Assembly: GCF_023277115.1 (NCBI RefSeq) | Contig: NZ_JALQCS010000001.1 | Span: 986,001-1,050,000, forward strand | DNA: 64,000 nt | Direction: 5' to 3' | DNA from: Acidithiobacillus acidisediminis | Lineage (GTDB): Bacteria > Pseudomonadota > Gammaproteobacteria > Acidithiobacillales > Acidithiobacillaceae | Part shown: piece after piece, positions 21,610-38,300 of the stretch | Position numbering within the stretch: the stretch's first letter is position 1 | Layout of the letters: every line of letters starts with the position of its first letter | Notes under the pieces: generated by a model | The model's input: only the letters and a program-made list of their open reading frames with translations | Told to the model about the DNA's origin: nothing | The model's database searches: none | Made by a program: the position numbers and the translations under genes

Positions 21610-22898
21610 AATGCAGGGATCTCCCGTGTTTCGACCTGATCCGGTTGCTCCCAGGGCGCCCAGACGTTGAGGGCGTGTGCAACGGCCACGGCGCTGCGCA
21701 TCCCGTCCTCGTGAAAGCCGTGACCAAGCCAGGCACCTGCGAAAAAGAGTCTCTCCTTCCCCTGCAGTGCTTGTAGGCGGCTTTGTGCCTGCAGGGCAGC
21801 GGCATCAAAAATGGGATGCGCGTACGCGATTTCCTTCCAGACTAGCTGGGGATTCGGTTCTCTCTCCGGGTTCAAGGTAACAATGACGGGATCGTGAAAG
21901 GGGAGCGGCTGAAGATGATTGATCAAATAACTGACGGAAACGGGATGCGTCCCTGATGCCGACCCCTCGGCGTGAAAATTCCACGCCGACCACGCACCGC
22001 GCCGCTGGGGCAGAAAACTGCGGTCACGGTGCAAGATGGCGCGATTGGGCTGATAGCGAATCCTCTCCAGGGCGTTACGCTGCTCCGGCCAATGAACTCC
22101 CAACAGTGCAGCAGCCTGATCACTGTGCACCGCACTCACCACCGCGTCGAATTCTTCCTCGCCAGCCGGACCATGAACCCGTACGCCATTCCTAGTAGGC
22201 TCCAGGGCATGGATCGGATAATCGTGGCGCGCATCTGCCAGACCGGCAATGATTCGCTGCACATATTCCCGGCCACCACCCGAGACGGTGCGCCATTGCG
22301 GGCGGTGCAGCACATTGAGCAAGCCATGATTGGCACAGAACTGCAAGAAAGAGCGGGCGGGATAGGCGGTCATTTGTTGCTCGGGGCAAGACCAGATCGC
22401 CGCCGCCATCGGTAATAAGTAAGCATCGCGTAACCAGGTGCCGTAGTTTCCGCGATCGAGAAATTCGCCCAGACTGAGGTCTTCGCTGGTGAGGTGGAGC
22501 CAGCGCTTGGCATCCCGATTGAAGCGCAAAATATCGCGGAGCATGCCGTAGAAGGCCGGACGCAAGAAATTTCGGCGCTGTGCGAAGAGGCTGTTGAGGC
22601 TGGTGCCGCTCCATTCAAGATCCAACGCGGGCATGCGCACGCTGAACGACATGTTGCTAGCTACCGTTTGCACGCCCAATGCCGAGAAGAAGGCCAGCAG
22701 GTGTGGGTAGGTCCAGTCATTGCAAACCAAAAAGCCAGTGTCCACCGGCGCAATGTTGCCTTCATGCTCCACATCGACCGTGTGGGTATGACCACCAAAA
22801 CGTGCATCCGCTTCAAAAAGGGTCACTTGATGTCGCTGTTCCAGCAGCCAGGCACTTGCCAAGCCCGCAATACCACTCCCAATAACCGCAATACGCAT
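21588..22898 (-). CDS. NAD(P)/FAD-dependent amine-oxidase-like oxidoreductase
   Basis: A 436-residue flavoprotein with N-terminal MRIAVIGSGIAGLASAW and FEADARFGGHTHTVDV, the family mark of FAD-binding COG2907-type oxidoreductases related to phytoene desaturases and amine oxidases. The C-terminus has RLFFAGAWLGHGFHEDGMRSA, the second FAD contact. Substrate unknown; the constant pairing with CFA-like and DUF1365 genes points to fatty-acyl oxidation. It is the first gene of a nine-gene minus-strand operon, 92 bp from a palindromic operator shared with the divergent Fe-S photolyase genes. Confidence 0.87.
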   Translation of the reverse strand: MRIAVIGSGIAGLASAWLLEQRHQVTLFEADARFGGHTHTVDVEHEGNIAPVDTGFLVCNDWTYPHLLAFFSALGVQTVASNMSFSVRMPALDLEWSGTSLNSLFAQRRNFLRPAFYGMLRDILRFNRDAKRWLHLTSEDLSLGEFLDRGNYGTWLRDAYLLPMAAAIWSCPEQQMTAYPARSFLQFCANHGLLNVLHRPQWRTVSGGGREYVQRIIAGLADARHDYPIHALEPTRNGVRVHGPAGEEEFDAVVSAVHSDQAAALLGVHWPEQRNALERIRYQPNRAILHRDRSFLPQRRGAWSAWNFHAEGSASGTHPVSVSYLINHLQPLPFHDPVIVTLNPEREPNPQLVWKEIAYAHPIFDAAALQAQSRLQALQGKERLFFAGAWLGHGFHEDGMRSAVAVAHALNVWAPWEQPDQVETREIPALWPQQAH

Positions 22899-22963
22899 CT
22901 GGGCCTCCGGTGTCCTGTCCTGTGGATACTACGCACGCCAAATCGCTTCGGATGCGACTGTCG

Positions 22964-23014
22964 TTGCAGTGATCTCTTAGTGTTCATATTATGTATAGTA
23001 CATAAAGTGCGCAA
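22964..23014. promoter_or_regulatory. Divergent promoter region with palindromic LitR/CarH-like operator
   Basis: A perfect inverted repeat ATGTA-TAG-TACAT lies at 22991-23003 and contains the 11-mer TGTATAGTACA (22992-23002). On the minus strand TTGCGC (23009-23014) and TAATAT (22986-22991) are 17 bp apart with the palindrome in the spacer. On the plus strand TTGCAG (22964-22969) and TATTAT (22987-22992) are also 17 bp apart. A repressor bound here would close both promoters. The individual -35 boxes are weak, so exact start sites are uncertain. Confidence 0.55.
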
Positions 23015-23025
23015 GAGTCCTTTGG

Positions 23026-23172
23026 ATGAAGAAATCTGAGTTGCCCAGCAAGATCTGTCCGACCTGTGGCCGGCCATTCTCCTGGAGGAAGCGGTGGAGA
23101 AAAGACTGGGAGCAGGTGAAATACTGCTCTGATTCCTGTCGTCTCCATAAACAAAAAGTTGACAGAGCATGA
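23026..23172 (+). CDS. DUF2256 zinc-ribbon protein
   Basis: A 48-residue protein, too short for many gene callers. It reads [20 protein letters not shown] in its first 20 residues and continues with YCSDSC near the end; two Cys pairs (CPTC and CSDSC) form a probable zinc ribbon, and WRKxW follows the first pair. This is the DUF2256 pattern. Its stop overlaps the start of the Fe-S photolyase gene (ATGA), so the two are coupled. DUF2256 proteins are regularly found before cryptochrome/photolyase-related genes; function unknown. Confidence 0.85.
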
Positions 23173-24701
23173 ACATCAAGCGTTTCTTTCTGTTCCTGGG
23201 TGATCAGCTCGATCCTGATAGTCCCCTGCTCGATGATCTCGATCCAGCCCGTGATCTCTGTGTGATGATTGAGGCGCGTAGTGAGGCGGAAAACGTTTGG
23301 TCGCACCGATCACGCATCACGCTCTTCCTTTCGGCCATGCGGCACTTTGCCGCTGCCCTGCGCGAGCGCGGCCTTACCGTTGAGTATCGACGTCTTGAAG
23401 AGCATCGACGGCAGGGCCTGGTCGCGCAGCTGGAAGATTTACTGCGGGAACACGCGCCGCGGGAGCTGTGCTGCGCTCGCCCAGGCGCTTGGGCTTTGCG
23501 TGAGCAAATCCGCTCTCTCTGCGCCGGCCACGGTGTGCAATATACCGAGCGGGAAGATCGGCGCTTCCTTTTTCCTCTGGCAGAGTTCGATGCTTGGGCT
23601 GGGACTCGTCGTCAGTACCGAATGGAACACTGGTACCGGCATGCGCGCGTCCGCAGCGGAATTCTGATGGAGCAGGGTCAGCCCCGCGGCGGACGTTGGA
23701 ACTACGATCAAGAAAACCGACGGAGTTTCGGACGACAAGGCCCCGGATGGCTGCCGCCGCCCCGCCGTTTTTTGCCTGACGCCATCACCCAGGAGGTGAT
23801 AGGCCTCGTTGAACGGGAGTTTCCCGAGCATCCCGGAAGTCTGGAACACTTTGACTGGCCGGTAACGCCGGAGCAGGCCGAAGAGGCGCTGCAAGACTTT
23901 GTACAACAGCGCCTGCAGGGTTTTGGGGATTTTCAGGATGTGACTTGGCCGGGTGAGGCCTGGATTTACCACTCGCGTCTCTCTGCCGCCATGAATCTTG
24001 GCCTGATCCCACCGCGACAGGTGATAGATGCTGCGCTTGCACAGCTCGAGGCTGGTCGCGCAGCCCTGAACGCCGTCGAGGGATTTGTGCGCCAGATTCT
24101 CGGTTGGCGGGAATACGTGCGCGGAATTTATTGGCGCGAGATGCCGGCGTACCTGGAGCAGAATGCCCTGCAGGCAGAGCAACCGCTACCCTCTTTTTAT
24201 TGGACCGCAGACACGGAAATGGCCTGCCTGCGCGATGTGTTGCAGCGCACGCTGGATTTTGCCTATGCCCACCATATCGAACGACTGATGGTTACCGGGC
24301 TTTTTGCGCTGCTCCTCGGCGTTGTGCCGAAGGAAATCCATAGGTGGTATCTCGCGGTCTATGTTGATGCCGTTGAGTGGGTGGAGTTACCCAATGTGCT
24401 CGGAATGTCGCAATATGCCGACGGCGGCATGCTCGCATCCAAGCCCTACGTCGCAACCGGGCAGTATCTGCAGCGTATGGGCGGGCATTGTCAACACTGT
24501 CGCTACGAGCCAAAGCAGGCGACTGGGGAACAGGCATGTCCCTTCACCACCCTCTATTGGGATTTTCTGCAACGGCACCGCAATCGATTTGCGGAGCATC
24601 CGCGCACGGCGCTGCAGTGGCGCAATCTAGAGCGAAAATCGGCGGCGGAATTGGCAGCCATTCGCGTGGCGGCGGAAGAACTGCGTGCACGGTTACGCTG
24701 A
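23169..24701 (+). CDS. Fe-S bacterial cryptochrome/photolyase (PhrB/CryPro type)
   Basis: A 510-residue protein of the deoxyribodipyrimidine photolyase-related family. It has the N-terminal FLFLGDQL antenna start, [36 protein letters not shown] and the C-terminal [19 protein letters not shown]. Cysteines for a 4Fe-4S cluster appear as one in [10 protein letters not shown] and three in [11 protein letters not shown] and EQACPF, which fits the known four-Cys pattern. Known members repair (6-4) photoproducts or regulate light responses, with FAD and a lumazine antenna. Coupled to DUF2256 by a 4-bp overlap and divergent from the lipid-modification operon at a shared operator. Confidence 0.88.
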
Positions 24702-24750
24702 CTTTCGTTAAGATCGGCGGCGGGATTCGCCCAAGTAGGGAACCATCCGC

Positions 24751-25752
24751 ATGTTCACGCGTAATGCCAATCTCCCCAAACTGCTGCGCCATGTCAGCTT
24801 TCGTCAATTGCAAATCTTTCAGGCGATTGTGCAGCAGCAAAGTTTTACCAAGGCGGCAGAAAGTCTGTTCCTGGCTCAGCCCACGGTTTCGCTACAAATC
24901 AAAAAGTTGACGGAAATTGTCGGCATGCCATTGTTCGAAAACGCGTCTGGGACACTGCGTCTCACCCCGGTAGGGGAGGATTTGCTGCGCACCAGTCAGG
25001 AATTGTTCGCGCTTTTTGAAAATCTCGAATCGCAGATTGCCGATCACCAGGGGCTGCGGCGAGGCAAGCTAGCCCTCGGCGTGGTAACCACGGCCAAATA
25101 TATCGCCCCAGAATTGCTTGCTGCCTTTGGCCAACAGTATCCAGGTATCCAATTCAGCATGAATGTGAGCAATCGGGATGAGATCATCCGGCGCATTCAG
25201 CAGAATACGGACGATCTGTACCTCATGGGGCAGGTGCCCGAGATTGAGGTGGATGTGGAAGCCATTCCTTTTGCCATCAATCCGCTGACGGTCATGGTCC
25301 CCAGTGACCATCCCCTGACCCAGGTATCGGGTCCTCTCCCCCTCTCGGCGATTGCGACGGCTCCTTTCCTGATTCGCGAGCCGGGTTCGGGTACCCGCAA
25401 CGCGTACCTGCGCCTCTTTGCAGATCGAGGACTGAAACCCCAGGTGTTTATGGAGTTGAGCAGTAATGAAGCGATCAAGCACGCCATTGCCAGTGGGCTA
25501 GGGATTTCGATCCTCTCCATTCACTCCCTGGCCTTGGAGGGCGTGGGTGGACCGATCAGTATTCTGGATGTGGAGGGCTTTCCCATTTTGCGCCGCTGGT
25601 ATCTGGTCTATCCCAGGGGTAAGCATTTGAGCCTCACCGCCCAACGCTTTCTACAATTCTCCCAGACGCAAACGGCGTTCATCAGCCAGCGCTTGGTGAA
25701 TTTGTGGCCGGATCTCTCCCGTCACCTGCATGACGAGGACGATATCATTTAA
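24751..25752 (+). CDS. CbbR/CmpR-like LysR regulator
   Basis: A 333-residue LysR-type activator. The N-terminal helix-turn-helix (FTKAAESLFLAQPTVSLQIK) is preceded by LRHVSFRQLQIFQAIV, and the effector domain has RGKLALGVVTTAKYIAPELL and REPGSGTRNAYLRLF, both typical of CbbR/CmpR proteins that sense carbon metabolites. It sits 96 bp before dabB on the same strand; LysR-dabB-dabA is a known arrangement in sulfur-oxidising autotrophs. It therefore probably activates the carbon-uptake genes under low inorganic carbon. I use the ATG at 24751. Confidence 0.85.
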   Translation: MFTRNANLPKLLRHVSFRQLQIFQAIVQQQSFTKAAESLFLAQPTVSLQIKKLTEIVGMPLFENASGTLRLTPVGEDLLRTSQELFALFENLESQIADHQGLRRGKLALGVVTTAKYIAPELLAAFGQQYPGIQFSMNVSNRDEIIRRIQQNTDDLYLMGQVPEIEVDVEAIPFAINPLTVMVPSDHPLTQVSGPLPLSAIATAPFLIREPGSGTRNAYLRLFADRGLKPQVFMELSSNEAIKHAIASGLGISILSIHSLALEGVGGPISILDVEGFPILRRWYLVYPRGKHLSLTAQRFLQFSQTQTAFISQRLVNLWPDLSRHLHDEDDII

Positions 25753-25772
25753 TTTAATAAATGTAGTAGATC

Positions 25773-25813
25773 TGAAAATCAAATTAGAATAAAAGATAGG
25801 CGTTGGCTATAGT
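25773..25813 (+). promoter_or_regulatory. dabBA promoter region with LysR-type half-sites
   Basis: The 96-bp gap is AT-rich compared with its surroundings. TGA-N8-TTA (25773-25786) fits the TNA-N7/8-TNA pattern of CbbR sites. A possible promoter is TTAGAA (25784-25789), 18 bp, TATAGT (25808-25813). The dabB ribosome binding site GAAGGAGG follows. Confidence 0.4.
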
Positions 25814-25848
25814 TCTCCTGCTCGCAAATACGAAGGAGGACGGTAACG

Positions 25849-27546
25849 ATGCAAAACCTTATCCCTGTGCCTTGGCTGACTGGCGCCGTTTTGAGCCTGA
25901 TGCCCATGGTCTTGCTCGCGGCCGCCACACCGCGCGCTCGCAGTACCCGCAACGCGGCCCTGAGCGCAAGAAATCGGGTGCGCTGGGCGGCCGTGGCTGC
26001 GCTTCTGGCGGCACTCCTTGCCGATCTCAGTTTTTTTCTGGGCGATCGAGGGGACGTGACCTGGTTCCATTTCCCCCTGCCGGTGGTGCATTTCTCGTTG
26101 CCCATTTCCATTGCGGTCAATGGTGTGACCATGCTGCTGGCGACCCTGGTATCCTTCGTGATCCTGATGATCGCCCAGTACAGCGTGCAGTACCTGGACG
26201 GGGACCCACAACAAGCACGCTTTTCGCGCTTGTTGGCGGTGACTGGAGGATGTTTTTTACTGGTGGTGATCTCCGGCAACATTGGGCTCTTCACCGTGGC
26301 CATCTTTGCCACGGGCTTCAGTTTGCACAAATTGCTCAAGTTCTATCGCGAGCGTCCCAAGGCGATCATGGCGGCACACAAAAAGGCCTTGTTCAGTCGT
26401 ACCGCTGACCTGTTCCTTTTCATCGCGACGATTCTGTTGGGCCAGACTGTGGGCAGTTTGCAGTTTTCGGCCATCGAAGCCTATGTTGCGGCGAGCCATG
26501 CTTTGCCGGCAGCGCTGCAATGGGCTGCCTGGCTGGTCATTGCTGCGGTCATCTTGAAAAGTGCCCATTTCCCGTTTCAGGGCTGGTTGATCCAGGTCAT
26601 GGAGGCGCCAACACCGGTTTCGGCGCTTATGCATGCGGGGGTGGTCTACAGTGGTGCCATTGTCGCCCTGCGCTTGAGCCCGCTTCTGGTGCGGGTGCCA
26701 GAGACCTTATGGTTCCTCGGTTTCTTCGGTTTGGTTACGGTGCTGGTGGCATCCTTGGCGATGACCACTCAGGCGGCGGTCAAATCGATGTTGGCTTGGT
26801 CCACGGCGGCCCAGTTGGGATTCATGTCGCTGGAGTTGGGTTTGGGCTTGTTTCCCCTGGCGCTCTTACACTTGGTGGGGCACTCCCTCTACAAGGCGCA
26901 TGCCTTTCTTTCCTCGGGTAGCGTGACCGATCAGCTACGCCAAGTGCCCGCTGGCGGGAAGAAGATTCCGGGTATGCCGAGCTGGATCAGTGCTGTCGGG
27001 CTCGCAGGAGTGATTGCTGCCACAGCCATCTGGGCCTTCGGTGAGAATCCGGCGCAGGATCGGGTGTGGTGGGCTCTGGGAGTGGTCATCGCCGTGGCTG
27101 TTGGCCAGATCCTCGTCAAGGGATTTCAGTTTGGCGATTGGCGTGATCGCCTGAATGCGGTCGCCGTCGCGGTGACTATGGCAGTGGTCTACCTGGGCCT
27201 ACATACCCTGTTTGTCTGGGCATTTTCTCCCGACTTGGCGACCCCTCTGGGTACCAACAGCAGCGTTTACTTGGCCTTGATCGATGCAACCGTAGCCAGT
27301 TTCCTGCTCTTGAGTTGGGTACAGGGTCCGGGTCGGAAGTGGCTACCTCAGTCAGTGCAGTTGGCTTTATATGTGCACTTCTACAACGGCTTGTATGTCG
27401 ACTATTGGGTCGATCGCTTCTCGCACAAGTTTTGGGCAGAGAAGGTGGGCGTGGAGGTGCCGCGTAAGAATCTCGCCCTGGAATCCCTCGAAGCGCTGGC
27501 GAAAAACCGTGAAGAATCTGTGTCTACTCCCGGAGGTGTGCAATGA
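25849..27546 (+). CDS. dabB: DAB inorganic-carbon transporter membrane subunit DabB
   Basis: A 565-residue NuoL/antiporter-like membrane protein with about 13 hydrophobic helices. The key family segment is KSAHFPFQGWLIQVMEAPTPVSALMHAGVV, followed by Lys-containing helices (QAAVKSMLAWSTAAQLGFM, GHSLYKAHAFL) that form the proton pathway. It lacks the long C-terminal lateral helix of complex I NuoL. With DabA it forms the energy-coupled CO2/bicarbonate accumulation complex. The gene overlaps dabA by 4 bp and has a strong GGAGG site. Confidence 0.9.
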   Translation: MQNLIPVPWLTGAVLSLMPMVLLAAATPRARSTRNAALSARNRVRWAAVAALLAALLADLSFFLGDRGDVTWFHFPLPVVHFSLPISIAVNGVTMLLATLVSFVILMIAQYSVQYLDGDPQQARFSRLLAVTGGCFLLVVISGNIGLFTVAIFATGFSLHKLLKFYRERPKAIMAAHKKALFSRTADLFLFIATILLGQTVGSLQFSAIEAYVAASHALPAALQWAAWLVIAAVILKSAHFPFQGWLIQVMEAPTPVSALMHAGVVYSGAIVALRLSPLLVRVPETLWFLGFFGLVTVLVASLAMTTQAAVKSMLAWSTAAQLGFMSLELGLGLFPLALLHLVGHSLYKAHAFLSSGSVTDQLRQVPAGGKKIPGMPSWISAVGLAGVIAATAIWAFGENPAQDRVWWALGVVIAVAVGQILVKGFQFGDWRDRLNAVAVAVTMAVVYLGLHTLFVWAFSPDLATPLGTNSSVYLALIDATVASFLLLSWVQGPGRKWLPQSVQLALYVHFYNGLYVDYWVDRFSHKFWAEKVGVEVPRKNLALESLEALAKNREESVSTPGGVQ

Positions 27547-29951
27547 GCAAGCAGGACAATGGAATGAGCTCCCTGATGGATCGCGTCACGCGGCGTATCG
27601 CCCCGGTCTGGCCTCTGGACAGCTTTGTCGCCGTAAACCCGTATTGGGGCTTTGCCGAGCACAGCCTACCCGAGGCAGCGGCAACCCTGCAGGGGGCGGC
27701 GGGAGAGCGGGTATTCATGGACCGACGTTGGTACGCGGAGCAGATACAACTGGGTAAGCTCAGCCTGGCAGACATCCAGCAGGCGGCCGAAGACCTGGGA
27801 CTCAGCAGCGACGAAGAGGAGTGGCAGGAATACCTGCGTCAAGCGCCCGAGCCACCCTTGCGTCTGCTGACCTTGGCAGAGCTGATGGATCGGCAAGGAC
27901 GCCCGGCGATCTCGCAGTTTGTCGTCGAGCAGATCAGCCACTTTCTTGCCGCCTATTACGATCGTGGCCAGTCTCTTTGGTCTTTGCCCAAAGCGGAGCA
28001 ACTGGGGCTTTTCGCAAGCTGGCGGCAATATACCCTGCGGGATCGTAGTCTGCATGCCATTGGTCTGGGAGGCGCGCGCCGGAACCTTCTGGCACTGCCC
28101 AGCGATGCGGGCAGCGCCACAGCGTGGGCGATGCAGACCTTGGATCTGCCGCCTGCGACCGAGGAGACCTATCTATTGGTCTTGCTCAAGACCGTGGGAG
28201 GATGGGCCAGCTGGTGTCGTTACTTGCTTTGGCAGGCAGAATTACAGGGCGGCACCCACCAGGATCTGCGCGACCTCCTGACTATTCGTCTGGTCTGGGA
28301 GGCCCTCTTGCGGGCAGTCGCACCAGCCAAGGCCCAGGAGCGCTGGCGCCAGCAGTTGCGCGGTTGGGTCCTGTTGGATAAAGGAGAGGACTTGGAACAC
28401 GCTCGGCGCAGCGAGGTCTTGTTGCGTGCCTCCGAGATGGTGTTCCGGCGCCAGGTCGCTGCCCGCATCCGCCACAAGCCTTCCCGCAAGACCAAGACTG
28501 GGGTCATACCCGAGGTGCAGGCGGCGTTTTGTATCGATGTCCGTTCCGAGGTCTATCGCCGTCACCTGGAGAGCCTCATGCCGACGTGTGAAACCATCGG
28601 TTTTGCGGGATTCTTCGGGGTGCTTCTAGACTATCGTCGCGCGGGGGATCCTGCGGCAAGAACCCAGTCGCCGGTGCTCTTGAATCCCGCGGTGCACGTG
28701 GAGGAGCAGGCGCCCGAGTCCATCGTCCGTCGCCGCTTGCGTCGGCTGCGTCGCGGTGCGGAATGGAAGCTATTCAAGCTCTCAGCCTCTTCCTGTTTTT
28801 CCTTCGTGGAAACCGCTGGAATTTCATATGTGGCGCGCTTGCTGGCCGATAGCATGGGCTGGCACCAGCCGTCCCAGGCACCCGACGACGCGGGATTGAC
28901 GGCCGATGAGCGGGCCCGACTGCAATGCGTTCTGCCCGCGACCCTGAACAGCGAAGAACGGGTAGGCCTGGCGGAATTCGTGCTGCGCGGTCTGGGTCTG
29001 ACCCAACGTATCGCACCCATAGTGCTCTTGGTGGGGCACGGCAGCTCGACGACCAACAATCCCCATCGTGCGGGTCTGGATTGTGGCGCCTGTGCCGGAC
29101 AAACCGGAGAGGTGAATGCCAAGGCGGCGGCCAATCTGTTGAACGATCCGCAAGTGCGCGCAGGATTGCTGGCCAAGGGTTGGGCTCTCGATCCGCAGAC
29201 GCGATTCGTGCCAGCACTGCATGACACCACCACTGATCGCGTCCAATTGCTCGAGGAGCCGGCTGGATTGTCCTCTCAGTCGCAGTTCGCGACGCTGCAA
29301 AAGGCCCTGGAAGAAGCGAGCGTGCTCACCCAGATGGAACGGATGCTACGTCTGGACGGCGATGTGCGCGAACCCCTGGAGGTGGCGCGGAACACCCAGT
29401 TCCGTGGTCGCGATTGGTCCCAGGTCCGACCGGAATGGGCATTGGCGGGCAATGCAGCCTTTATCGCCGCCCCGCGTTGGCGGACGCGGGAAATGAACCT
29501 CGGTGGACGCGCCTTTCTCCATGACTATGAGGCGCGTGAGGATCAGGACTTTGCCCTGCTGACGCTCATCATGACGGCACCCCTGGTGGTGGCCAATTGG
29601 ATCAACCTGCAATACTACGCCTCTACTGTGGATAACCAGCGTCAAGGCTGCGGCAACAAGGTGCTGCATAATGTGGTGGGCGGTACCATCGGCGTGCTCG
29701 AGGGGAATGGAGGGGATTTGCGTATTGGCCTCGCCGAGCAGTCCATCCGCGACAGCAATGGGGCACTGCAACATGAGCCCTTGCGTCTTTCGGCTTTCAT
29801 CGAAGCGCCAGCTGAGGCCATGGATCAGGTGATTGCCGACAGTGAGCCCCTCCGCAATCTGGTGGAAAACCGCTGGCTGACCGTGCTGCAGATTGGTGAA
29901 GACGGCACGCTACGTGAGCGCCGGGCGGCGGGGCAGTGGATGCAGGTGTAG
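27543..29951 (+). CDS. dabA: DAB inorganic-carbon transporter subunit DabA (DUF2309)
   Basis: An 802-residue soluble, membrane-associated protein. The zinc-site residues of DabA are visible: Cys330 and Asp332 (FCIDVRSE), His499 (VGHGSSTTNNP) and Cys514 (LDCGACAG), with the 15-residue His-Cys spacing of the characterised Halothiobacillus protein. DabA is beta-carbonic-anhydrase-like and is thought to hydrate CO2 in one direction, driven through DabB. Start overlaps dabB as ATGA. A strong terminator follows 48 bp after the stop. Confidence 0.92.
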   Translation: MSKQDNGMSSLMDRVTRRIAPVWPLDSFVAVNPYWGFAEHSLPEAAATLQGAAGERVFMDRRWYAEQIQLGKLSLADIQQAAEDLGLSSDEEEWQEYLRQAPEPPLRLLTLAELMDRQGRPAISQFVVEQISHFLAAYYDRGQSLWSLPKAEQLGLFASWRQYTLRDRSLHAIGLGGARRNLLALPSDAGSATAWAMQTLDLPPATEETYLLVLLKTVGGWASWCRYLLWQAELQGGTHQDLRDLLTIRLVWEALLRAVAPAKAQERWRQQLRGWVLLDKGEDLEHARRSEVLLRASEMVFRRQVAARIRHKPSRKTKTGVIPEVQAAFCIDVRSEVYRRHLESLMPTCETIGFAGFFGVLLDYRRAGDPAARTQSPVLLNPAVHVEEQAPESIVRRRLRRLRRGAEWKLFKLSASSCFSFVETAGISYVARLLADSMGWHQPSQAPDDAGLTADERARLQCVLPATLNSEERVGLAEFVLRGLGLTQRIAPIVLLVGHGSSTTNNPHRAGLDCGACAGQTGEVNAKAAANLLNDPQVRAGLLAKGWALDPQTRFVPALHDTTTDRVQLLEEPAGLSSQSQFATLQKALEEASVLTQMERMLRLDGDVREPLEVARNTQFRGRDWSQVRPEWALAGNAAFIAAPRWRTREMNLGGRAFLHDYEAREDQDFALLTLIMTAPLVVANWINLQYYASTVDNQRQGCGNKVLHNVVGGTIGVLEGNGGDLRIGLAEQSIRDSNGALQHEPLRLSAFIEAPAEAMDQVIADSEPLRNLVENRWLTVLQIGEDGTLRERRAAGQWMQV

Positions 29952-29999
29952 ATCTGTGTTGAGATTGCGGGGCATTTTTTGCGCGCAATGGTAGCCGAT

Positions 30000-30033
30000 T
30001 GCCGGGAACGCCAAGTCTTCCCGGCAGTTTTTT
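30000..30033 (+). terminator. Rho-independent terminator after dabBA
   Basis: A perfect 9-bp stem TGCCGGGAA / TTCCCGGCA with a 9-nt loop is followed by G and six T residues. It separates dabBA from the four CorA-family genes. Confidence 0.88.
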
Positions 30034-30101
30034 GCGCGGTGCCTTCCGCTGTCTGGCTTGCCTGTGCTATAACCTGCGCGAATCAGCAGGGGTGACGATG
30101 T

Positions 30102-30995
30102 ATGGCGAGCACGATCCTGAGAGACGCCCGGGGCGGCGTAGAGCAACTCTGGTTTCATCATCCTGCGCCCAGTATCGGGACGCTCGATGCCCTGCTTCAG
30201 AGGCTCGAACTTCCGGAAGATTTCTTCGAAGAACTCCTCGACCAGCAGCAGAGCCCTCGTCTGGAACGGATTGGTGGCTATCTCTTGCTGGTCATGCAGT
30301 TTCCGTGGCGGAGTGCGGCCGGGACGGAGTGCGTTCTGCGTCCTTTTGCCTTGCTCTGGGGAGAAGGAAAATTGTGGACCTTTGCCGAGGTCGATTGGCC
30401 ATTTCTGGCGCAGTGGAATGCGCGCAAGTTCCACGATCCCCGACAAACCTTGATCTGGATCCTGCAGGTTCTGGCCTCCAGCTATCAGCAGACCGTTGAG
30501 CGATTGCGTAAGGAGATCCTGCAGGTGGAGACACGCCTCGATGCGACGCAGCGGACCGAGGACTTCTATGCCCTGCTCGCTCTCAGTAAGGCCTTGACGC
30601 AGTTTTACGTCACCTTGGCCAGCAACATCGTGGCGGTGTTCAAAGTGTCTCGCACCGCCGCCTTGCGCTGGGAAGAGGAAAACCGCTCGGCCCTGAATCG
30701 TGCCATCGCCGATTTGCAGCATGCCCGGGACCGGGCGGAAATCAGTGCCAGTACCGCCAATGACATGATGGACGCCTACGCCGGCATGGTACAAATCAAC
30801 ATCAATCATGGTCTCAAGATTCTCACCGTCATGGCCTTGGTGCTCTACGTGCCGAGCCTGGTAGCCACGGTTTTTGGGGTCAACGTACCGCTGTTGGAGC
30901 AGCACAGTCATTGGACGGTCTGGGTGGCGATGGGCATCGCCTTCCTGATTTCCATTGGCATGACGGTACATTTCAAACGGCGAGGATGGTTATGA
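30102..30995 (+). CDS. CorA-family transporter-like protein 1 (GVN motif)
   Basis: A 297-residue protein: long helical cytoplasmic part and two C-terminal membrane helices, as in CorA/ZntB proteins. The ion-selectivity motif GMN is changed to GVN (ATVFGVNVPLL). The stalk-helix region reads DMMDAYAGMVQININHGLKIL. AGGGG precedes the start. It is the first of four consecutive CorA-family genes and overlaps the next by 4 bp. Because GMN is needed for Mg2+ selection in known CorA channels, this subunit may carry another ion or be structural. Confidence 0.85.
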   Translation: MASTILRDARGGVEQLWFHHPAPSIGTLDALLQRLELPEDFFEELLDQQQSPRLERIGGYLLLVMQFPWRSAAGTECVLRPFALLWGEGKLWTFAEVDWPFLAQWNARKFHDPRQTLIWILQVLASSYQQTVERLRKEILQVETRLDATQRTEDFYALLALSKALTQFYVTLASNIVAVFKVSRTAALRWEEENRSALNRAIADLQHARDRAEISASTANDMMDAYAGMVQININHGLKILTVMALVLYVPSLVATVFGVNVPLLEQHSHWTVWVAMGIAFLISIGMTVHFKRRGWL

Positions 30996-31927
30996 AAAAC
31001 CTACGTGCCGCACGGGTCATTGCCATCCGTGGAGAAGGGCGCCGCACCTATCATTGGACCAGTGTCGTTGCTCCCGATAACCAGCAGGTCAGCGAGCTCA
31101 CCCAGCGCTTTCAGATCTATGAAGAATTTTTTCACGACGTGCAAGATCTGGATGAACGCCCTCGTCTCGAAAAAGAGGCCAACAACATTTTGGTGATTCT
31201 GAAGCTTCCGGTGCCGCGCACGGATCCAGACTCTGGCCGGCCGAGTTTTGCCGTGATTCCGATGGGCATCGTTTTTGGCCGCGAAGAGATCCTGACTGTG
31301 AGTTCGGAGGAACTCCCCCTATTGCGTGCCATTGAGGCACAATTGCCGCAGGAAACCGATGAACTCGATCCGCGCTGGCTGACGGTGGAAATGATTCAGC
31401 GCATGGCGCGGGCTTTCCTCGACGCTCTGCAGGTAATCAACGAGGAAATCGTGCATACGGAAAACCGCTTGCATCATTCTCAGAGCAATGATGATTTTTT
31501 CAGCATGCTCAGTTTGAACAAGATCCTCATTCGCTTTACCTCGGCCTTGCGTGGTGATATTTCGGTGCTGCAGCAGCTTCTGCGCCTGCCGGTCATCACC
31601 CAGGATGAGGAGGACTCCGAAGACCTCGCCGATGCCCTGATCGATCTGCAGCAGGCGCGGGATATGACGGAGATCTACACCTCCACCATCACCAACATGA
31701 TGGATGCCTACGGTGGGGTGCTACAAACCAACGTCAGCAACACCCTGAAAGTCATTACCGGCTGGACGGTGATCATTGCCATCCCCGCCACCGTTGCCAC
31801 GATTTATGGCATGAACGTACCACTGCCGCTGCAGGACTGGGCCTATGCTTGGCCGACCTTGATGGGTGGTGGATTTCTGCTTTCCCTCTTGGCGGTACTC
31901 TGGTTTCGGCGGCGACATTGGATTTGA
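30992..31927 (+). CDS. CorA-family Mg2+/divalent metal transporter-like protein 2 (canonical GMN)
   Basis: I start at the ATG that overlaps the previous stop (ATGA), behind GAGGAT; 311 residues. The stalk helix has TSTITNMMDAYGGVLQTNVSNTLKVI, and the first membrane helix ends in the canonical IYGMNVPLP, so this is the only one of the four tandem copies with an intact GMN motif. The second helix and the basic tail FRRRHWI complete the CorA topology. It is the best candidate for a working Mg2+ channel subunit. Confidence 0.88.
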   Translation: MKNLRAARVIAIRGEGRRTYHWTSVVAPDNQQVSELTQRFQIYEEFFHDVQDLDERPRLEKEANNILVILKLPVPRTDPDSGRPSFAVIPMGIVFGREEILTVSSEELPLLRAIEAQLPQETDELDPRWLTVEMIQRMARAFLDALQVINEEIVHTENRLHHSQSNDDFFSMLSLNKILIRFTSALRGDISVLQQLLRLPVITQDEEDSEDLADALIDLQQARDMTEIYTSTITNMMDAYGGVLQTNVSNTLKVITGWTVIIAIPATVATIYGMNVPLPLQDWAYAWPTLMGGGFLLSLLAVLWFRRRHWI

Positions 31928-32874
31928 ATCCCTGGCTCTGGACCCTGTGGCGGACCCCCGCTGCGCTGCCCGCAACTGTGCCGGTGCAGGGTGCCTTTTT
32001 GCTCGGTGCGGACGGGCAAGAGGGCTGGCGAGGGTATGCGCAAGCCCTCGGCCTGCCGCCTTCCTGGTTTTTGACCGCAGCATCGGATGAGTTGCTGGCA
32101 ACCTACGGTGCGCGCTTGGAACAGCCGAGCGACGGCATTTGGCATGTGCATCTGCCCTACGTGTATGAGCAGGAGGATGCCGAGGCCGGGACGGATCGCT
32201 TGCTGGAATCCGTACTCGGTATTATTGTCGCCCCCCAGAGCTTATGGGCTTTGGCCCCCGCCGAGGCGCTGACCCCCTTGTATCACGACGTTGCCGAGAT
32301 GAGTGATCCAGAGAGCCGCGAGCAGGCCTTGTTGCGGGTCGTTCTGGTAGCCATTCACAGTCATGACCTCGCCGCCCAGCGCATTGTCCGCCGCCTGAAA
32401 GAGTTGCGGGCTGACCTGCGCAAGTCCATGAACAATCGTGAGCTGCAGGAGATCGTCAAACTCAATCGGAGCATGGGAGACTTGGTGGTATCTCTACGCG
32501 ATCTTGGGCACACCCTGCGCACCTGGCTCTGGGAGTTGGAGGAGGGGGACCCCCTGCTGGCGGTCTTGGAGGAGTTGCAGGCAGAGCTGCGCCGGGTGGA
32601 GGATGGCGTAACCTTGATCTGGGAGCGTTATCTCTCGGTAACCAATTGCTATACCGGCATCGTGCAGAACAACTCCCATGCCGTCATGAAGGTGATGACC
32701 TTGTGGCTGGCACTACTGATGGTGCCAATTGCCCTGATCATGCCGTTTCACATGGAAACCCATCTCCCCCTGGGGCATTGGCATTTCACCTGGTATTTTC
32801 TGATTGCCTATGGCTTTGGGGCCTCCTTGTTGATTGCCTGGTGGGGTCGGCGCCATGGCTTCTTTGACATGTGA
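31924..32874 (+). CDS. CorA-like protein 3 (GMN motif lost)
   Basis: No ATG or GTG is suitably placed; the TTG at 31924, overlapping the previous TGA, gives 316 residues with an N-terminus comparable to its neighbours. The C-terminal half has the CorA stalk (RVEDGVTLIWERYLSVTNCYTGIVQNNSHAVMKVM) and two membrane helices, but the GMN position reads IMPFHMETHLP, so the selectivity motif is gone. Coupled translation from the previous gene is likely. It may be a non-conducting subunit. Confidence 0.75.
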   Translation: MNPWLWTLWRTPAALPATVPVQGAFLLGADGQEGWRGYAQALGLPPSWFLTAASDELLATYGARLEQPSDGIWHVHLPYVYEQEDAEAGTDRLLESVLGIIVAPQSLWALAPAEALTPLYHDVAEMSDPESREQALLRVVLVAIHSHDLAAQRIVRRLKELRADLRKSMNNRELQEIVKLNRSMGDLVVSLRDLGHTLRTWLWELEEGDPLLAVLEELQAELRRVEDGVTLIWERYLSVTNCYTGIVQNNSHAVMKVMTLWLALLMVPIALIMPFHMETHLPLGHWHFTWYFLIAYGFGASLLIAWWGRRHGFFDM

Positions 32875-32883
32875 GCGGTAGCG

Positions 32884-33798
32884 ATGCTGAAAAGGGTTCC
32901 TGGCGCTTTTCTCACCGGCAATGGTCGGAGTCGCGACTGGTTGCAGCTGCTCGCGCCCAGCGATGAGGAGTTGGAGCAGGTGGCCACTGGCCTTGGAGTG
33001 CCAGAACCTTTCCTGCGCCGGCGCCTGGAAGATAAGCCGGCCCGCCCCTTCGTGCGGGAAAAGGGCTTTCTGGCGCTGCAGTTTACCGTGCCGCATCATC
33101 ATGCCCCACAGTCGAGCACCTTTGATCTCCTGCCCCTCACGTTGATTCTGGTGCCGGGAAATTTCGTTACCCTGAGTCTGGAGCCGGTGCGCTTCCTGGA
33201 TGCCCTCCTGGATCCTGCCGCACCGCGCAAGCGCTGGGAACTGGTCCTGCAGATCATTCACGAAATCGCTCGTCGCTATGTGCGTATGTCGCGTGACGTG
33301 GGGCAGGAATTGGGCGAGATCGAGAGAGACTTGCGTCGGGCGCAGCGAGTCCATGTCATTTACCGCGCCCTGGCGGTCAATGATCGCCTCTTGGACCTGG
33401 ATCTCGGCCTCTTGCAACTGGAGCACTTGCTGGAAGAGTTGCGCCCCTGGCTACCCCAGGATTCTGCTGATTTCCGCGAGTATTATGAAGACAGCCGTAT
33501 CGAATTGCGGCAGGCGCGGGAACAGGTGGATACCGAGCAGGCGACCATCAACAGTCTGCTCAATGCCTATACCTACGTCGTCAATAATAACGTCAACAAT
33601 ATCTTCAAATTCATGGCCTCATTGATCATCCTTGCCACCATTCCGCTCTTTATTCCGGGTGCCGTGGCGATGAACGTGAACCTGGGGCCAATTCCGGCTT
33701 CGCATTCAGCCTTCTATTGGATTACTGGTGGCTTGATCCTTGTCGAAATGACCACGGCCTTGGTCTTTTATCGCATTGGCTGGTTTCGTTTGCGCTAG
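32884..33798 (+). CDS. CorA-family transporter-like protein 4 (AMN motif)
   Basis: A 304-residue protein with the CorA layout: cytoplasmic alpha/beta N-terminal part, long helices, then two membrane helices. The selectivity motif is AMN (GAVAMNVNLGP), with Ala for Gly. The stalk reads INSLLNAYTYVVNNNVNNIFKFM. It begins 9 bp after gene 3. It is the most divergent N-terminally, so the four genes are old paralogues, not recent copies. Confidence 0.83.
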   Translation: MLKRVPGAFLTGNGRSRDWLQLLAPSDEELEQVATGLGVPEPFLRRRLEDKPARPFVREKGFLALQFTVPHHHAPQSSTFDLLPLTLILVPGNFVTLSLEPVRFLDALLDPAAPRKRWELVLQIIHEIARRYVRMSRDVGQELGEIERDLRRAQRVHVIYRALAVNDRLLDLDLGLLQLEHLLEELRPWLPQDSADFREYYEDSRIELRQAREQVDTEQATINSLLNAYTYVVNNNVNNIFKFMASLIILATIPLFIPGAVAMNVNLGPIPASHSAFYWITGGLILVEMTTALVFYRIGWFRLR

Positions 33799-34250
33799 AA
33801 ATCGATAAAAATCATATTCTTGTCATAAAAGTTCATCAAGATGTCACAGTGCGTTGTTACCATTCCCCAACAGTTTGCAAATCCGCCACAGTTGAGGGTA
33901 TACCCGTAACATCGAGAAAACCGCTGTTTCTGGCCCTATTGGTAAGCGCCCTCGGCCAATGGATATGGGTGTGAGAAAGGTGTACTTCAACTTGTGCGTG
34001 GACAGCTTCTTCAATGCCAAGTACTACAGTTCGGCGGATCTCTACCCGGGTTCGGCGAGCCAAGGTGCGCATTTCGTTTTAGTGTTGCTCTGCCGGCCCA
34101 GCGTGACCTTGGCGAGCCCCCCGATAGCCCTGAGCACACCGCCAACCTCGGCGCCGCTGCTGATGCCTATCTGCATGGCTGCTGCCCAGCCCTGGCATTC
34201 CGCCATCAAATCATGGTATAAAGCGCCTCTTTTCGTAGGGGATGGTAGTC
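33799..34250. other. 452-bp gap between the corA-like genes and rpmB
   Basis: I see no convincing gene. Frames on both strands lack a ribosome binding site and recognisable motifs. The first 100 bp are AT-rich and carry no clear hairpin terminator. The last 40 bp contain TATAAA (34217-34222), a likely -10 box for rpmB, with only weak -35 matches 18-19 bp upstream. Confidence 0.5.
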
Positions 34251-34487
34251 ATGTCCAGAGTTTGCAAGGTGACGGGCAAGAAGCCCATGGCGGGGAACAA
34301 TGTCTCCCACGCCAACAACAAGACGCGGCGGCGTTTTCTGCCGAATCTGCAGTATAAGCGTTTCTGGGTGGAGAGCGAGAAGCGTTGGGTGCGCCTGCGG
34401 GTGAGCACGCAAGGGATCCGCACCATCGACAAGAAAGGCATCGATGTGGTCCTGGCGGACCTGCGTGCCGCTGGCGAGAAAATCTGA
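34251..34487 (+). CDS. rpmB: 50S ribosomal protein L28
   Basis: A 78-residue protein starting [20 protein letters not shown] and containing [13 protein letters not shown], the diagnostic L28 sequence and length. I use the ATG at 34251, two codons inside a longer frame. It is followed 11 bp later by rpmG, the usual gammaproteobacterial order. Confidence 0.96.
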
Positions 34488-34498
34488 GGGGTTGAGCG

Positions 34499-34654
34499 AT
34501 GCGTGACAAAATCAAGCTGGTCTCGACGGCGGGTACGGGACACTTTTACACCACGACCAAGAACAAGAAGACGACCCCGGACAAGCTCGAGTTCGTCAAA
34601 TACGATCCCAAGGCGCGCAAGCATGTCGCCTATCGGGAAGACAAAATCAAGTAA
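34499..34654 (+). CDS. rpmG: 50S ribosomal protein L33
   Basis: A 51-residue protein, start [19 protein letters not shown], then [22 protein letters not shown] across the middle in family order and a basic end. It is the cysteine-free form of L33, which does not need zinc. Short length explains why it is easily missed. GGGGTTGAGCG precedes the start. Confidence 0.95.
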
Positions 34655-34666
34655 TCCTCTGGCCTC

Positions 34667-34693
34667 TTGGCACTCTCTGCGCTAGAGTGCCAA
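34667..34693 (+). promoter_or_regulatory. CIRCE operator (HrcA binding site)
   Basis: TTGGCACTC-N9-GAGTGCCAA, a perfect inverted repeat with 9-nt spacer. It matches the CIRCE consensus TTAGCACTC-N9-GAGTGCTAA except for a compensated A-to-G change in both arms. It lies 40 bp before hrcA and 12 bp after rpmG, and can also act as the rpmG terminator hairpin. It implies repression of hrcA-grpE-dnaK-dnaJ by HrcA at normal temperature. Confidence 0.9.
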
Positions 34694-34733
34694 GAAGACG
34701 CCCGGAGTGGGCGTGTCCTGGAGCGATCATACG

Positions 34734-35768
34734 ATGGATGCGCGTGCCCGTCATTTACTGAAGTCCTTGATTGAGCAGCATATCAGCAGCGGCCAGCCCG
34801 TGGGCAGCCGCCAGCTGGCGCGAGATGCGGGTTTGGCAATCAGTCCGGCTACCGTGCGCAACGTGATTGCCGATCTTGAGGACGAGGGTTACGTCATCTC
34901 GCCGCACACCTCGGCAGGACGGATACCTACCTCCAGCGGTTACCGCTTTTTCGTCGACTCGCTGATTCATGTGGCACACCTATCCGGGGCCTCTCGGCGG
35001 GTACTCTTGCAGCGCATTGGCGCGCGGGCACCAGATGCCGAGGAGGTCCTCCATGCGGCAACCGAGGCCCTCTCGGAGATGACGCGCATGGTGGGCTTCA
35101 TCCGGGTGCCCAAACGGGCGACACAGACGCTGCGCCATGTCGATTTCATCGCGTTACGTGAACGGGAAGTCCTTGCCATCTTTGTCACCGATAAAGGCGA
35201 GGTCGAAAACCGCCTGATCCGTGTGGAAGAACCCCTCAGCGCCTCTGCCCTGACGCAGGCTGCCAATCGCTTCAACGCCAGTTACGGCGGACGCCCCTTG
35301 CAGGAAGTCATGGCGCTGCTGGACGAAGACCTACGGCAGTCGCGCAAGGAAATGGACGAGATCTTGCGCAGTGCCATGGAGCTCGGGCGAGAGATGCTTG
35401 CTGCCGACCAGGAACGCATGCTCATCGAGGGCGAGCTGCAACTCTTGGATCTACCAGATTTTTCCGCCAGTGAGCGTCTGCGTGAATTGCTTTCCGTGGT
35501 GCGCCAGAAACGTGAGCTGGTCATGCTCCTGGATCAGAGTATGCGCGGCAGCGATGTGCGCCTGTTCATTGGTGGTGAATCGGGCTTTGCGCCATTGAGC
35601 GATTTCACCCTGATTTCTGCCCCCTATCAGATTGATGGCGAGCCGGTGGGGGTGATCGGCGTGCTCGGTCCCATGCGGATGCCCTATCAAGAGATCATCC
35701 CCTTGGTGGATGGCACCGCGCGCTTGCTTGGGCAGGCCCTGTCTCACAGCGAAATGCTTCCCTCTTGA
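34734..35768 (+). CDS. hrcA: Heat-inducible transcription repressor HrcA
   Basis: I choose the ATG at 34734 (MDARARHLLKSLIEQHI), behind GGAGCG; 344 residues. The winged-helix N-terminus has PVGSRQLARDAGLAISPATV and ISPHTSAGRIPTSSGYRFFVD, diagnostic for HrcA. The C-terminal dimerisation domain ends with IGGESGFAPLSDFTLISAPY and GPMRMPYQEII. It binds the CIRCE element just upstream and so regulates itself and the chaperone genes behind it. Confidence 0.94.
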   Translation: MDARARHLLKSLIEQHISSGQPVGSRQLARDAGLAISPATVRNVIADLEDEGYVISPHTSAGRIPTSSGYRFFVDSLIHVAHLSGASRRVLLQRIGARAPDAEEVLHAATEALSEMTRMVGFIRVPKRATQTLRHVDFIALREREVLAIFVTDKGEVENRLIRVEEPLSASALTQAANRFNASYGGRPLQEVMALLDEDLRQSRKEMDEILRSAMELGREMLAADQERMLIEGELQLLDLPDFSASERLRELLSVVRQKRELVMLLDQSMRGSDVRLFIGGESGFAPLSDFTLISAPYQIDGEPVGVIGVLGPMRMPYQEIIPLVDGTARLLGQALSHSEMLPS

Positions 35769-35823
35769 AATGGCTCTGCCCCCGCCCCATCTATGGGTGG
35801 GACGAAGCTGGAGGAAGTGCCCC

Positions 35824-36348
35824 ATGAGTGACGAAATAGAGCAGGATTCACAGGCTACGGAAGCTATGGCAGAAGAAGGTAAAAACGCTGAGGATACGGA
35901 TTGGCAAGCTGAGGCGGAGAAATTTCGCAACGAGTATTTACGTTCGCTGGCCGACATGGAAAACCTGCGCAAGCGCATGGAAAAACAGATGGATGATGCC
36001 CGCAATTACGCCGTAGAGCGATTTGCCCGCGAGCTATTGCCAGTTGTTGATAGTCTGGAAATGGCGCTGGCGACGCCGAGTGGTGATGACGATGCGATGG
36101 TGCAGTTTCGGCAGGGTATCGAAAACACGTTGCATCTCTTCAGCGGCGCCCTGAGCAAGGCAGGGGTGCGTGAGGTGGAGGTTGAAAATGGGCGCTTTGA
36201 TCCCAATCTGCATCAGGCGATCGCCATGGTCGAGCAGGACGGCGAGGCCAACCGCATCCTCGCGGTACACCAGAAAGGATATTTGATTCACGATCGTTTG
36301 TTGCGACCGAGCATGGTCTCGGTTTCCAAGGCCGCCAAGTCGCAATGA
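35824..36348 (+). CDS. grpE: Nucleotide exchange factor GrpE
   Basis: A 174-residue protein with an acidic N-terminus, a long coiled coil (EAEKFRNEYLRSLADMENLRKR) and the beta-domain with GRFDPNLHQAIAMVEQ and KGYLIHDRLLRPSMVSVSK. It releases ADP from DnaK. GGAGGAAGTG precedes the ATG. It lies between hrcA and dnaK in the classic hrcA-grpE-dnaK-dnaJ order. Confidence 0.95.
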   Translation: MSDEIEQDSQATEAMAEEGKNAEDTDWQAEAEKFRNEYLRSLADMENLRKRMEKQMDDARNYAVERFARELLPVVDSLEMALATPSGDDDAMVQFRQGIENTLHLFSGALSKAGVREVEVENGRFDPNLHQAIAMVEQDGEANRILAVHQKGYLIHDRLLRPSMVSVSKAAKSQ

Positions 36349-36392
36349 ACGGTGCGAGAAACGAACGTTTTGATAATTCAGGAGATTGAACA

Positions 36393-38300
36393 ATGGCAAA
36401 AGTGATTGGTATCGATTTGGGAACCACCAATTCCTGTGTCGCGGTGATGGAAGGGGACAAGGTCAAGGTGATCGAAAACAGCGAAGGCAAGCGCACTACG
36501 CCTTCCATCATTGCCTTCAGCGAGGACGGTGAGGTTTTGGTCGGCGAGTCCGCAAAGCGGCAGGCGGTTACCAATCCAGAAAACACCATTTACGAGGTCA
36601 AGCGGCTGATTGGGCGCAAGTTTGACGATGCGGAAGTACAGAAGGACATGAAACACGTCCCCTATAAAATCGTCAAATCCGACAATGGCGACGCTTGGGT
36701 GGAAGCGCGCGGCAAGACCTATTCGCCGCAACAGATTTCTGCCTACATCCTGCAGAAGATGAAAAAGACTGCGGAAGATTATCTCGGCGAGACGGTCAGC
36801 GAAGCGGTAATTACCGTGCCAGCCTACTTCAACGACGCGCAACGGCAGGCAACCAAGGATGCCGGACGTATCGCTGGTCTGGAAGTGAAGCGCATCATCA
36901 ACGAGCCGACAGCGGCAGCGCTCGCCTTCGGTGAGGACAAAAATCCTGGCGACAGCAAGATTGCGGTCTATGATCTCGGTGGAGGGACCTTTGATATTTC
37001 GATCATCGAGATTGCCGAAATGGACGGCGAGCATCAGTTTGAGGTGCTCTCCACCAACGGCGACACCTTCCTCGGTGGTGGTGATTTCGACAACCGGGTG
37101 ATCAATTACCTGGCGGATTCCTTCAAGGCCGAGGCCGGAATCGACCTGCGCAATGATCGACTGGCCATGCAGCGCCTAAAGGAAGCCGCGGAGAAGGCGA
37201 AGATCGAACTGTCTTCTTCCGCGCAGACCGATGTCAATCTGCCCTTCATCACGGCGGATCAGTCTGGTCCGAAGCATCTCAACATGAAGCTGACCCGGGC
37301 CAAGCTGGAGTCCTTGGTTGAGGATCTGATCGATCGCAGCATGACGCCCTGCAAGGTGGCGATGAAGGATGCTGATCTTTCTTCCAGCCAGATCACGGAC
37401 GTGATTTTGGTGGGTGGTCAGACCCGCATGCCCAAGGTGCAGGACAAGGTCAAGGATTTCTTCAGCAAGGAGCCACGCAAGGACGTCAACCCCGACGAGG
37501 CGGTGGCCATTGGCGCTGCGGTGCAGGGCGCGGTGCTGTCCGGCGACAAGAAAGACGTCCTGCTCATGGACGTGACCCCCTTGTCCCTTGGCATCGAAAC
37601 CTTGGGCGGCGTGATGACCAAGCTGATCGAGAAGAACACCACGATCCCGACGCGCAAGTCGCAGGTCTTCTCTACGGCAGAAGATAACCAGTCGGCAGTA
37701 ACGGTGCATGTGCTACAGGGCGAGCGGGAGCTGGCGCGAGACAACAAGTCTCTTGCACGCTTCGACTTGGCGGATATCCGTCCGGCCCCCCGTGGCATGC
37801 CCCAGATCGAAGTCACCTTCGACATCGATGCCAACGGGATCCTGCATGTTTCGGCCAAGGACAAGGAGACCAACAAGGAGCAGTCGATCAAGATTACGGC
37901 TAGCTCCGGTCTCTCCGAAGCAGAGATCCAACGCATGATCAAGGAGGCCGAGGCGAATGCCGCCGACGACAAGAAGGCGCGAGCCTTGATCGAGGCGCGG
38001 AACGAAGCCGATGGCAGTATACACGGTGCACGTAAGGCCCTGAGCGAACACAGTTCCGCGCCAGCGGAGATACGCAGTAAGGTGGAAGGCGCCGTAACTG
38101 CGGCGGAGGAAGCCGTGAAAGGCGAGGATGCCGAGGCCATCAAGGGCGCCGTGGCGACTCTGATGGCAGCCATGTCGGAGTTGCTGCAGCATGCCGGTCC
38201 TGCGGGGCAGGGTGGCCCCGGTGAGGCTGCCGGTCCTGGCGCGCAGAGCAAGGACGATGACGTGGTCGAGGCCGAGTTCGAAGAGGTCGACAAGAAGTAA
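36393..38300 (+). CDS. dnaK: Molecular chaperone DnaK (Hsp70)
   Basis: A 635-residue Hsp70. The ATPase domain begins [17 protein letters not shown] and has [27 protein letters not shown] and [14 protein letters not shown]. The substrate domain has [14 protein letters not shown] and a helical lid; the C-terminus ends in the acidic EEVDKK tail. An AGGAG site precedes the ATG. A hairpin with 9-bp stem lies between it and dnaJ. Confidence 0.97.

Follow-up and report, generated by a model that had tools for sequence, protein, structure and literature searches.

What would lead an extreme acidophile to keep four dissimilar CorA-family genes side by side, with the family's GMN selectivity motif intact in only one of them? 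CorA channels normally consist of five identical subunits, and the family is used as a model for symmetric homopentamers. The question is raised by a block of genes, cor1 to cor4, found at 30102-33798 of a 64,000-nucleotide stretch of the Acidithiobacillus acidisediminis genome (contig NZ_JALQCS010000001.1, positions 986,001 to 1,050,000; hereafter the window). Our preferred answer, to which we give roughly even chances, is that the four genes form one transcription unit whose products assemble, as unlike subunits, into one divalent-cation channel of the Acidithiobacillaceae that is hetero-oligomeric, of CorA type and probably pentameric. The block itself is real, conserved, selected and in part already published; the hetero-oligomer is plausible, and for it we infer co-assembly, stoichiometry, ion and direction of transport. 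The four CorA-family open frames lie on the same strand and overlap or almost touch:

30102..30995, plus strand: cor1, CorA-family protein of 297 aa with the filter GVN (a ZntB-like Met-to-Val change)
30992..31927, plus strand: cor2, CorA-family protein of 311 aa with an intact GMN; its start overlaps the cor1 stop
31924..32874 (about), plus strand: cor3, divergent protein of predicted CorA fold, 316 aa, with His-Met-Glu replacing GMN; its TTG start is uncertain
32884..33798, plus strand: cor4, CorA-family protein of 304 aa with the filter AMN

The cor1/cor2 junction is a 4-nt ATGA overlap, the putative TTG start of cor3 overlaps the TGA of cor2 (an alternative in-frame TTG at 31918 is possible), and 9 nt separate cor3 from cor4. 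We infer a single transcript from this spacing alone, because a promoter and terminator scan showed no excess over shuffles. All four products score above the curated cut-off of Pfam CorA PF01544 (27 bits), with 122.4, 174.8, 55.6 and 94.7 bits for cor1 to cor4, and all four miss the CorA equivalog NCBIfam TIGR00383 (87.7, 108.4, 20.0 and 62.9 bits vs. 200.75). The ZntB model NCBIfam NF007092 was also missed, cor1 reaching 27.6 bits against a cut-off of 292 and the other three not being listed at E 0.001. A fifth CorA match in the same genome is located away from the block and has an ordinary GMN. The frames, Pfam scores and motifs thus bear out the tandem quartet with a single intact GMN, in cor2, that a preliminary description of this DNA had claimed. 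Its reading of the filters as GVN, GMN, absent and AMN holds for genes 1, 2 and 4, and for gene 3 "absent" is better replaced by His-Met-Glu.

Is this arrangement more than a peculiarity of one genome? Conservation of the block in relatives had been chosen beforehand as the point on which the idea could fail, and that conservation was found. Searching 57 genomes, 29 in the window's family and 28 outside it, with Pfam CorA and sorting the block frames by similarity, we recovered a complete block, in the order 1-2-3-4 and on one strand, in 20 of the 29 family genomes. In two others (G006 and G028) the block is cut by the contig start, seven lack it (G001, G004, G005, G009, G012, G025 and G027; 61-99% complete), and none of the 29 carries an internally incomplete one. 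The 28 non-family genomes have no block and at most two CorA matches each. Across loci the intergenic gaps run from -28 to +38 nt, given the starts chosen. Two genomes of one genus, G010 (C23) and G013 (C1), have a five-gene block, with an extra gene between 1 and 2 and filters reading, in order, GVN, AMN, GMN, HMN and SMN; G013 is presumably At. caldus, which would fit the five-gene cluster reported for that species. The recurrence of gene order and paralogue-specific motifs in relatives means that the block is not a product of chance, and its complete presence in 20 of 29 genomes makes co-made subunits plausible. It is an ancient unit, kept by selection, of a single bacterial family.

The motifs are largely fixed for each paralogue. 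The filter of cor1 is GVN in 21 of 21 sequences and that of cor2 is GMN in 19 of 19 from two genera; in the third genus, that with five genes, the cor2 counterpart (cor2b) has GMN and its extra neighbour AMN (2/2 each). Among 22 sequences each, cor4 has AMN in 20 and SMN in two, and cor3 has HMM in 15, HME in four and HMN in three, so His-Met is kept and Asn is not. The GxN signature that the CorA/MIT (2-TM-GxN) superfamily has between its two membrane helices is therefore present in cor1 and cor2 and lacking in cor3 (HM-E/M/N) and cor4 (AMN/SMN), which makes the latter two CorA-fold relatives rather than standard GxN channels. The first transmembrane helix plus filter (TM1; TmCorA 280-315) is the most conserved region, at 68-76% between genera for each orthologue set vs. 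27-46% for the N-terminal domain, yet paralogues within one genome share just 25-37% of TM1.

The presumed pore lining follows the same pattern. At 16 positions that we take to form pore rings, picked from structure papers and compared in TmCorA numbering across 12 genomes (with cor2b standing for cor2 in the third genus), cor1 has a single residue at 12, cor2 at 10, cor3 at 15 and cor4 at nine, and at none of the 16 do all four paralogues have one fixed residue in common. For cor1 to cor4, respectively, position 288 is N, S/A, H and N; position 291 is L, L/V, M and F; position 302 is Y, A, M and T/S; and position 312 is G, G, H and A/S. Omega values for eight genome pairs (rough, as some synonymous divergences, dS, exceed 1) were 0.045-0.102 for cor1, 0.030-0.112 for cor2, 0-0.182 for cor3, 0.011-0.107 for cor4 and 0.066 for cor2b. 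Within each orthologue group, purifying selection preserves a distinctive motif and pore lining. Decaying duplicates are ruled out by omega values of at most 0.182 and intact frames.

The halves of the inter-subunit metal site, which we take to be D89/D253 in TmCorA numbering, are also unevenly spread. Both positions are D in cor2 from the main genus and from that of the window; cor1 has D at 89, replaced in the window's genus by E or Q, and a non-acidic residue at 253, cor4 has R/K at 89 and D at 253, the AMN gene of the five-gene block has Q at 89 and D at 253, and cor3 has no acid at 89 and E or a neutral residue at 253. In a mixed assembly, cor1 together with cor4 or cor2 could complete a site of the D89/D253 type.

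Although it lacks GMN, cor3 is predicted to adopt a CorA fold, with a funnel domain, a long helix and two C-terminal membrane helices. Its AlphaFold2 monomer (pLDDT 78.0, pTM 0.70) retrieved CorA chains at the top of a Foldseek search (E 6e-9 to TmCorA), and it superimposed on MjCorA with Z 17.8 (rmsd 6.0, 287 aligned), on TmCorA with 17.7, on full-length ZntB with 15.6 and on human MRS2 with 13.6, compared with about 11 for unrelated helical chains. CmaX (PDB 7nh9), which has a CorA-like fold, also lies near the cor3 model (Z 16.1, rmsd 4.9, 269 aligned). The cor4 model (pLDDT 81.5) has the same order of elements, with weak membrane helices (56-76). Both models are monomers; the fold of cor1 and cor2 was judged by sequence only, and the best match of cor2 among solved structures was MjCorA (5.5e-33).

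In a tree of 72 proteins, cor1, cor3 and cor4 each form one clade (100/99 to 100/100), implying that the duplications predate the split of the three genera. Support for joining cor2 with its five-gene counterpart is 87/78. In the same tree the extra AMN gene of the five-gene version forms an old branch of its own, which would mean either loss in two genera or gain in one. Against 22 canonical CorAs alone the block is one group at 100/100; when four Firmicutes/Bacteroidota relatives are added, these join it at 100/100, and support for the block as a single group drops to 74/36. This placement suggests that the block derives from the MjCorA-like side of the family.

Several lines of evidence lead us to favor a hetero-oligomer: the fixed order, all-or-none presence and tight packing of the genes, with an order that outlasts their neighbours; the single clade formed by each of cor1, cor3 and cor4; pore residues fixed by paralogue under purifying selection, with a TM1 that is conserved among orthologues yet divergent between paralogues; the uneven distribution of the metal-site halves; and the precedent of heteromeric CorA proteins. 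In such a channel cor2, with the sole GMN and both metal-site acids, would serve as the core that conducts and senses, and cor1 (GVN), cor4 (AMN) and cor3 (HM-E/M/N) would place other residues in the same pore rings and filter. The mixed filter and pore might then tune selectivity and gating for a periplasm at pH 1-3 and an inside-positive potential. Such a potential is described for acidophiles in a passage of PMC3988360, and a passage of PMC6972854 has the T. maritima and M. jannaschii CorAs aided by membrane potential and ZntB by a proton gradient; in that setting a mixed channel could plausibly include a ZntB-like GVN subunit.

Several points weigh against this reading. Tandem duplicates can remain together without co-assembly, and each protein could make homomers. 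ZntB with its GVN is reported to work as a homo-oligomer, so cor1 needs no partner, and the R/K89-D253 pair could form a salt bridge within a homomer of cor4. The presence of four genes in two genera and five in another means that a fixed one-of-each pentamer is not general. Finally, a single origin by in-place duplication is supported at only 74/36 once the nearer relatives are included, and the branch leading to cor3 is very long, long branches being a limit on the tree.

The main rival, possible but to our minds the less probable account, is that the operon serves metal homeostasis with four separate homo-oligomeric channels of differing ion preference (Mg2+, Zn2+, Co2+/Mn2+, etc.). All four proteins pass Pfam CorA and all are under purifying selection; ZntB, with its Met-to-Val change, moves Zn2+ (according to part of PMC5670123), and the 2017 paper on the Acidithiobacillus cor cluster speaks, in its main text, of four CorA transport systems (PMC5468388). 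The rival fits cor3 less well, since 19 of 22 cor3 sequences are without a GxN-type filter and the cor3 N-terminal domain differs between genera (27% identity), and in the 22 block-bearing genomes the genes are never single, two contig ends aside.

The same paper proposes export for this cluster, and with the inside-positive potential of acidophiles (PMC3988360, in part) one can imagine Mn2+, Co2+ or Zn2+ leaving through CorA-type channels in the service of metal tolerance. We regard this as unlikely: MgtE is absent from all 29 family genomes, MgtA over its curated cut-off from all 19 family genomes searched, and the block holds the sole CorA-family genes in seven of the 20 complete-block genomes, which fits a role in supply. 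Three family genomes, G009 (99% complete), G004 (91%) and G012 (71%), lack matches to CorA and MgtE as well as to MgtA above its cut-off and must take up Mg2+ by some other route; for the same reason we do not claim the block as the sole route for Mg2+.

We are similarly doubtful of a stricter version of the hetero-oligomer, namely an obligate hetero-pentamer with a fixed arrangement of four unlike subunits (five in one genus, one per position), asymmetric filter and gate rings and a titratable cor3 His at the mouth, which would make an acid-gated pseudo-symmetric channel. Less probable again is a channel made of cor2 (perhaps with cor1), with cor3 and cor4 as regulatory subunits or assembly factors that conduct no ions themselves, the kind of role proposed for Lpe10 beside Mrs2 in yeast mitochondria. 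That GMN is kept by cor2 only and lost by cor3 would agree with such a division of labor, but the TM1 of cor3 is conserved (75%) like those of the others, which fits a pore-lining role.

The weakest proposal, which the preliminary description had raised, from the position behind dabBA, as a link to carbon uptake or pH homeostasis in acid, is that the block functions with the adjacent DAB inorganic-carbon pump: in the window's genome cbbR-dabB-dabA does lie directly upstream on the same strand, but dab genes adjoin the block in just one of 22 loci and one of 14 genomes searched whole, and we think the link very improbable. The flank survey behind the first count had no upstream flank in G006 and G028 and 0.8 kb only in G026; DabA is encoded in 13 of the 14 whole genomes, next to the block only in the window's. 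In two other genomes of the window's genus (G002 and G007) a photolyase-like gene stands directly before cor1 without dab between, so dab has been either gained or lost at this site. Upstream of cbbR-dabBA in the window (19631-24701) are photolyase-, amine-oxidase-, DUF1365- and cyclopropane-fatty-acid-synthase-like frames, names that rest partly on reading of the translations.

Elsewhere the neighbours vary: three members of the window's genus have hrcA downstream of the block, and other genera have glycolate-oxidase-like genes, a molybdopterin-binding protein, MnmG or an Nramp transporter. In G010 an Nramp-family gene is convergent just behind the five-gene block (L041:11604-12863). The order 1-2-3-4 persists while the neighbours change between genera. 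An Rfam scan of window 24000-36500 gave no match, and a 353-aa minus-strand frame opposite cor1 (29910-30971) is interpreted as a mechanical by-product of coding DNA with high G+C.

Beyond the family the block seems to be missing. A cor3 profile run against 369 genomes of the class gave two matches, both family members within the sample, and a cor2 search at E 1e-30 likewise gave two of 369. The genome-contig loci found number 16, 15 from Acidithiobacillus or Igneacidithiobacillus and one from a "Proteobacteria bacterium" contig, and viral contigs gave no match. A general multiplication of CorA genes was considered and rejected: 17 of 299 phylum-sample genomes, those with four or five CorA matches (genomes with three lay outside this check), were re-searched, and on any one contig no two matches were less than about 37 kb apart. 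Non-family genome G044 has two neighbouring CorA-family genes (C10:374512-376370; GIN and GMN, 122 bases apart), so tandem CorA genes are not unique to the block.

How much of this was known? The main text of PMC5468388 describes an Acidithiobacillus "cor cluster" in which four CorA genes (five in At. caldus) keep their synteny, and reads it as four Mn2+/Co2+ transport systems for export. Our block matches that description, the gene-by-gene identity being deduced from the description and the host group. The conserved cluster and its export reading are therefore already published there; the words GMN, hetero, pentamer, selectivity, paralog and tandem are absent from that main text, and in the open-licence literature we found no statement of a mixed-subunit channel or a motif change for the cor cluster. 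What we add is a loss of GMN that is fixed paralogue by paralogue, pore linings that are distinct and selected, an all-or-none block in 29 genomes, the predicted cor3 fold and the refuted dab link. If the subunits do co-assemble, this would be a bacterial operon in which filter and gate-ring positions were varied per subunit and then kept by selection; simple co-expression would then allow tests of stoichiometry, of asymmetric gating and of how far the motif can vary (GMN, GVN, AMN, HMx), with a bearing on divalent-cation handling by extreme acidophiles under an inside-positive potential, in a family whose 29 searched genomes show no MgtE. Even if each subunit forms homomers, the set documents a CorA-fold protein in which the loss of GMN has been selected.

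The nearest relatives found for the block are the MjCorA-type "magnesium transporter CorA family protein" of Firmicutes and Bacteroidota; the four that we included differ from it in that they have GMN and are single genes within the short stretches examined. ZntB shares the Met-to-Val change of cor1 (PMC5670123, in part), but cor1 scores far below the ZntB cut-off. The statement in the preliminary description that CorA proteins are homopentamers as far as known is too strong: CorA1-3 of Cupriavidus are claimed to form heteromers, and for yeast Alr1/Alr2 these have been shown or claimed. In a passage of PMC6972854 CorAs are described as "homo- or hetero-pentamers" and a CorA123 heterotrimer from C. 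metallidurans is cited, and a passage of PMC12720413 states that Alr1p forms heteromers with Alr2p. As far as these passages go, C. metallidurans CorA1-3 and yeast Alr1/Alr2 resemble our preferred reading in that unlike CorA-family subunits are reported or proposed to cooperate; Alr1 and Alr2, however, are about 70% alike, whereas the paralogues of the block are far more divergent, are co-located in a fixed order, and in three cases out of four are without GMN.

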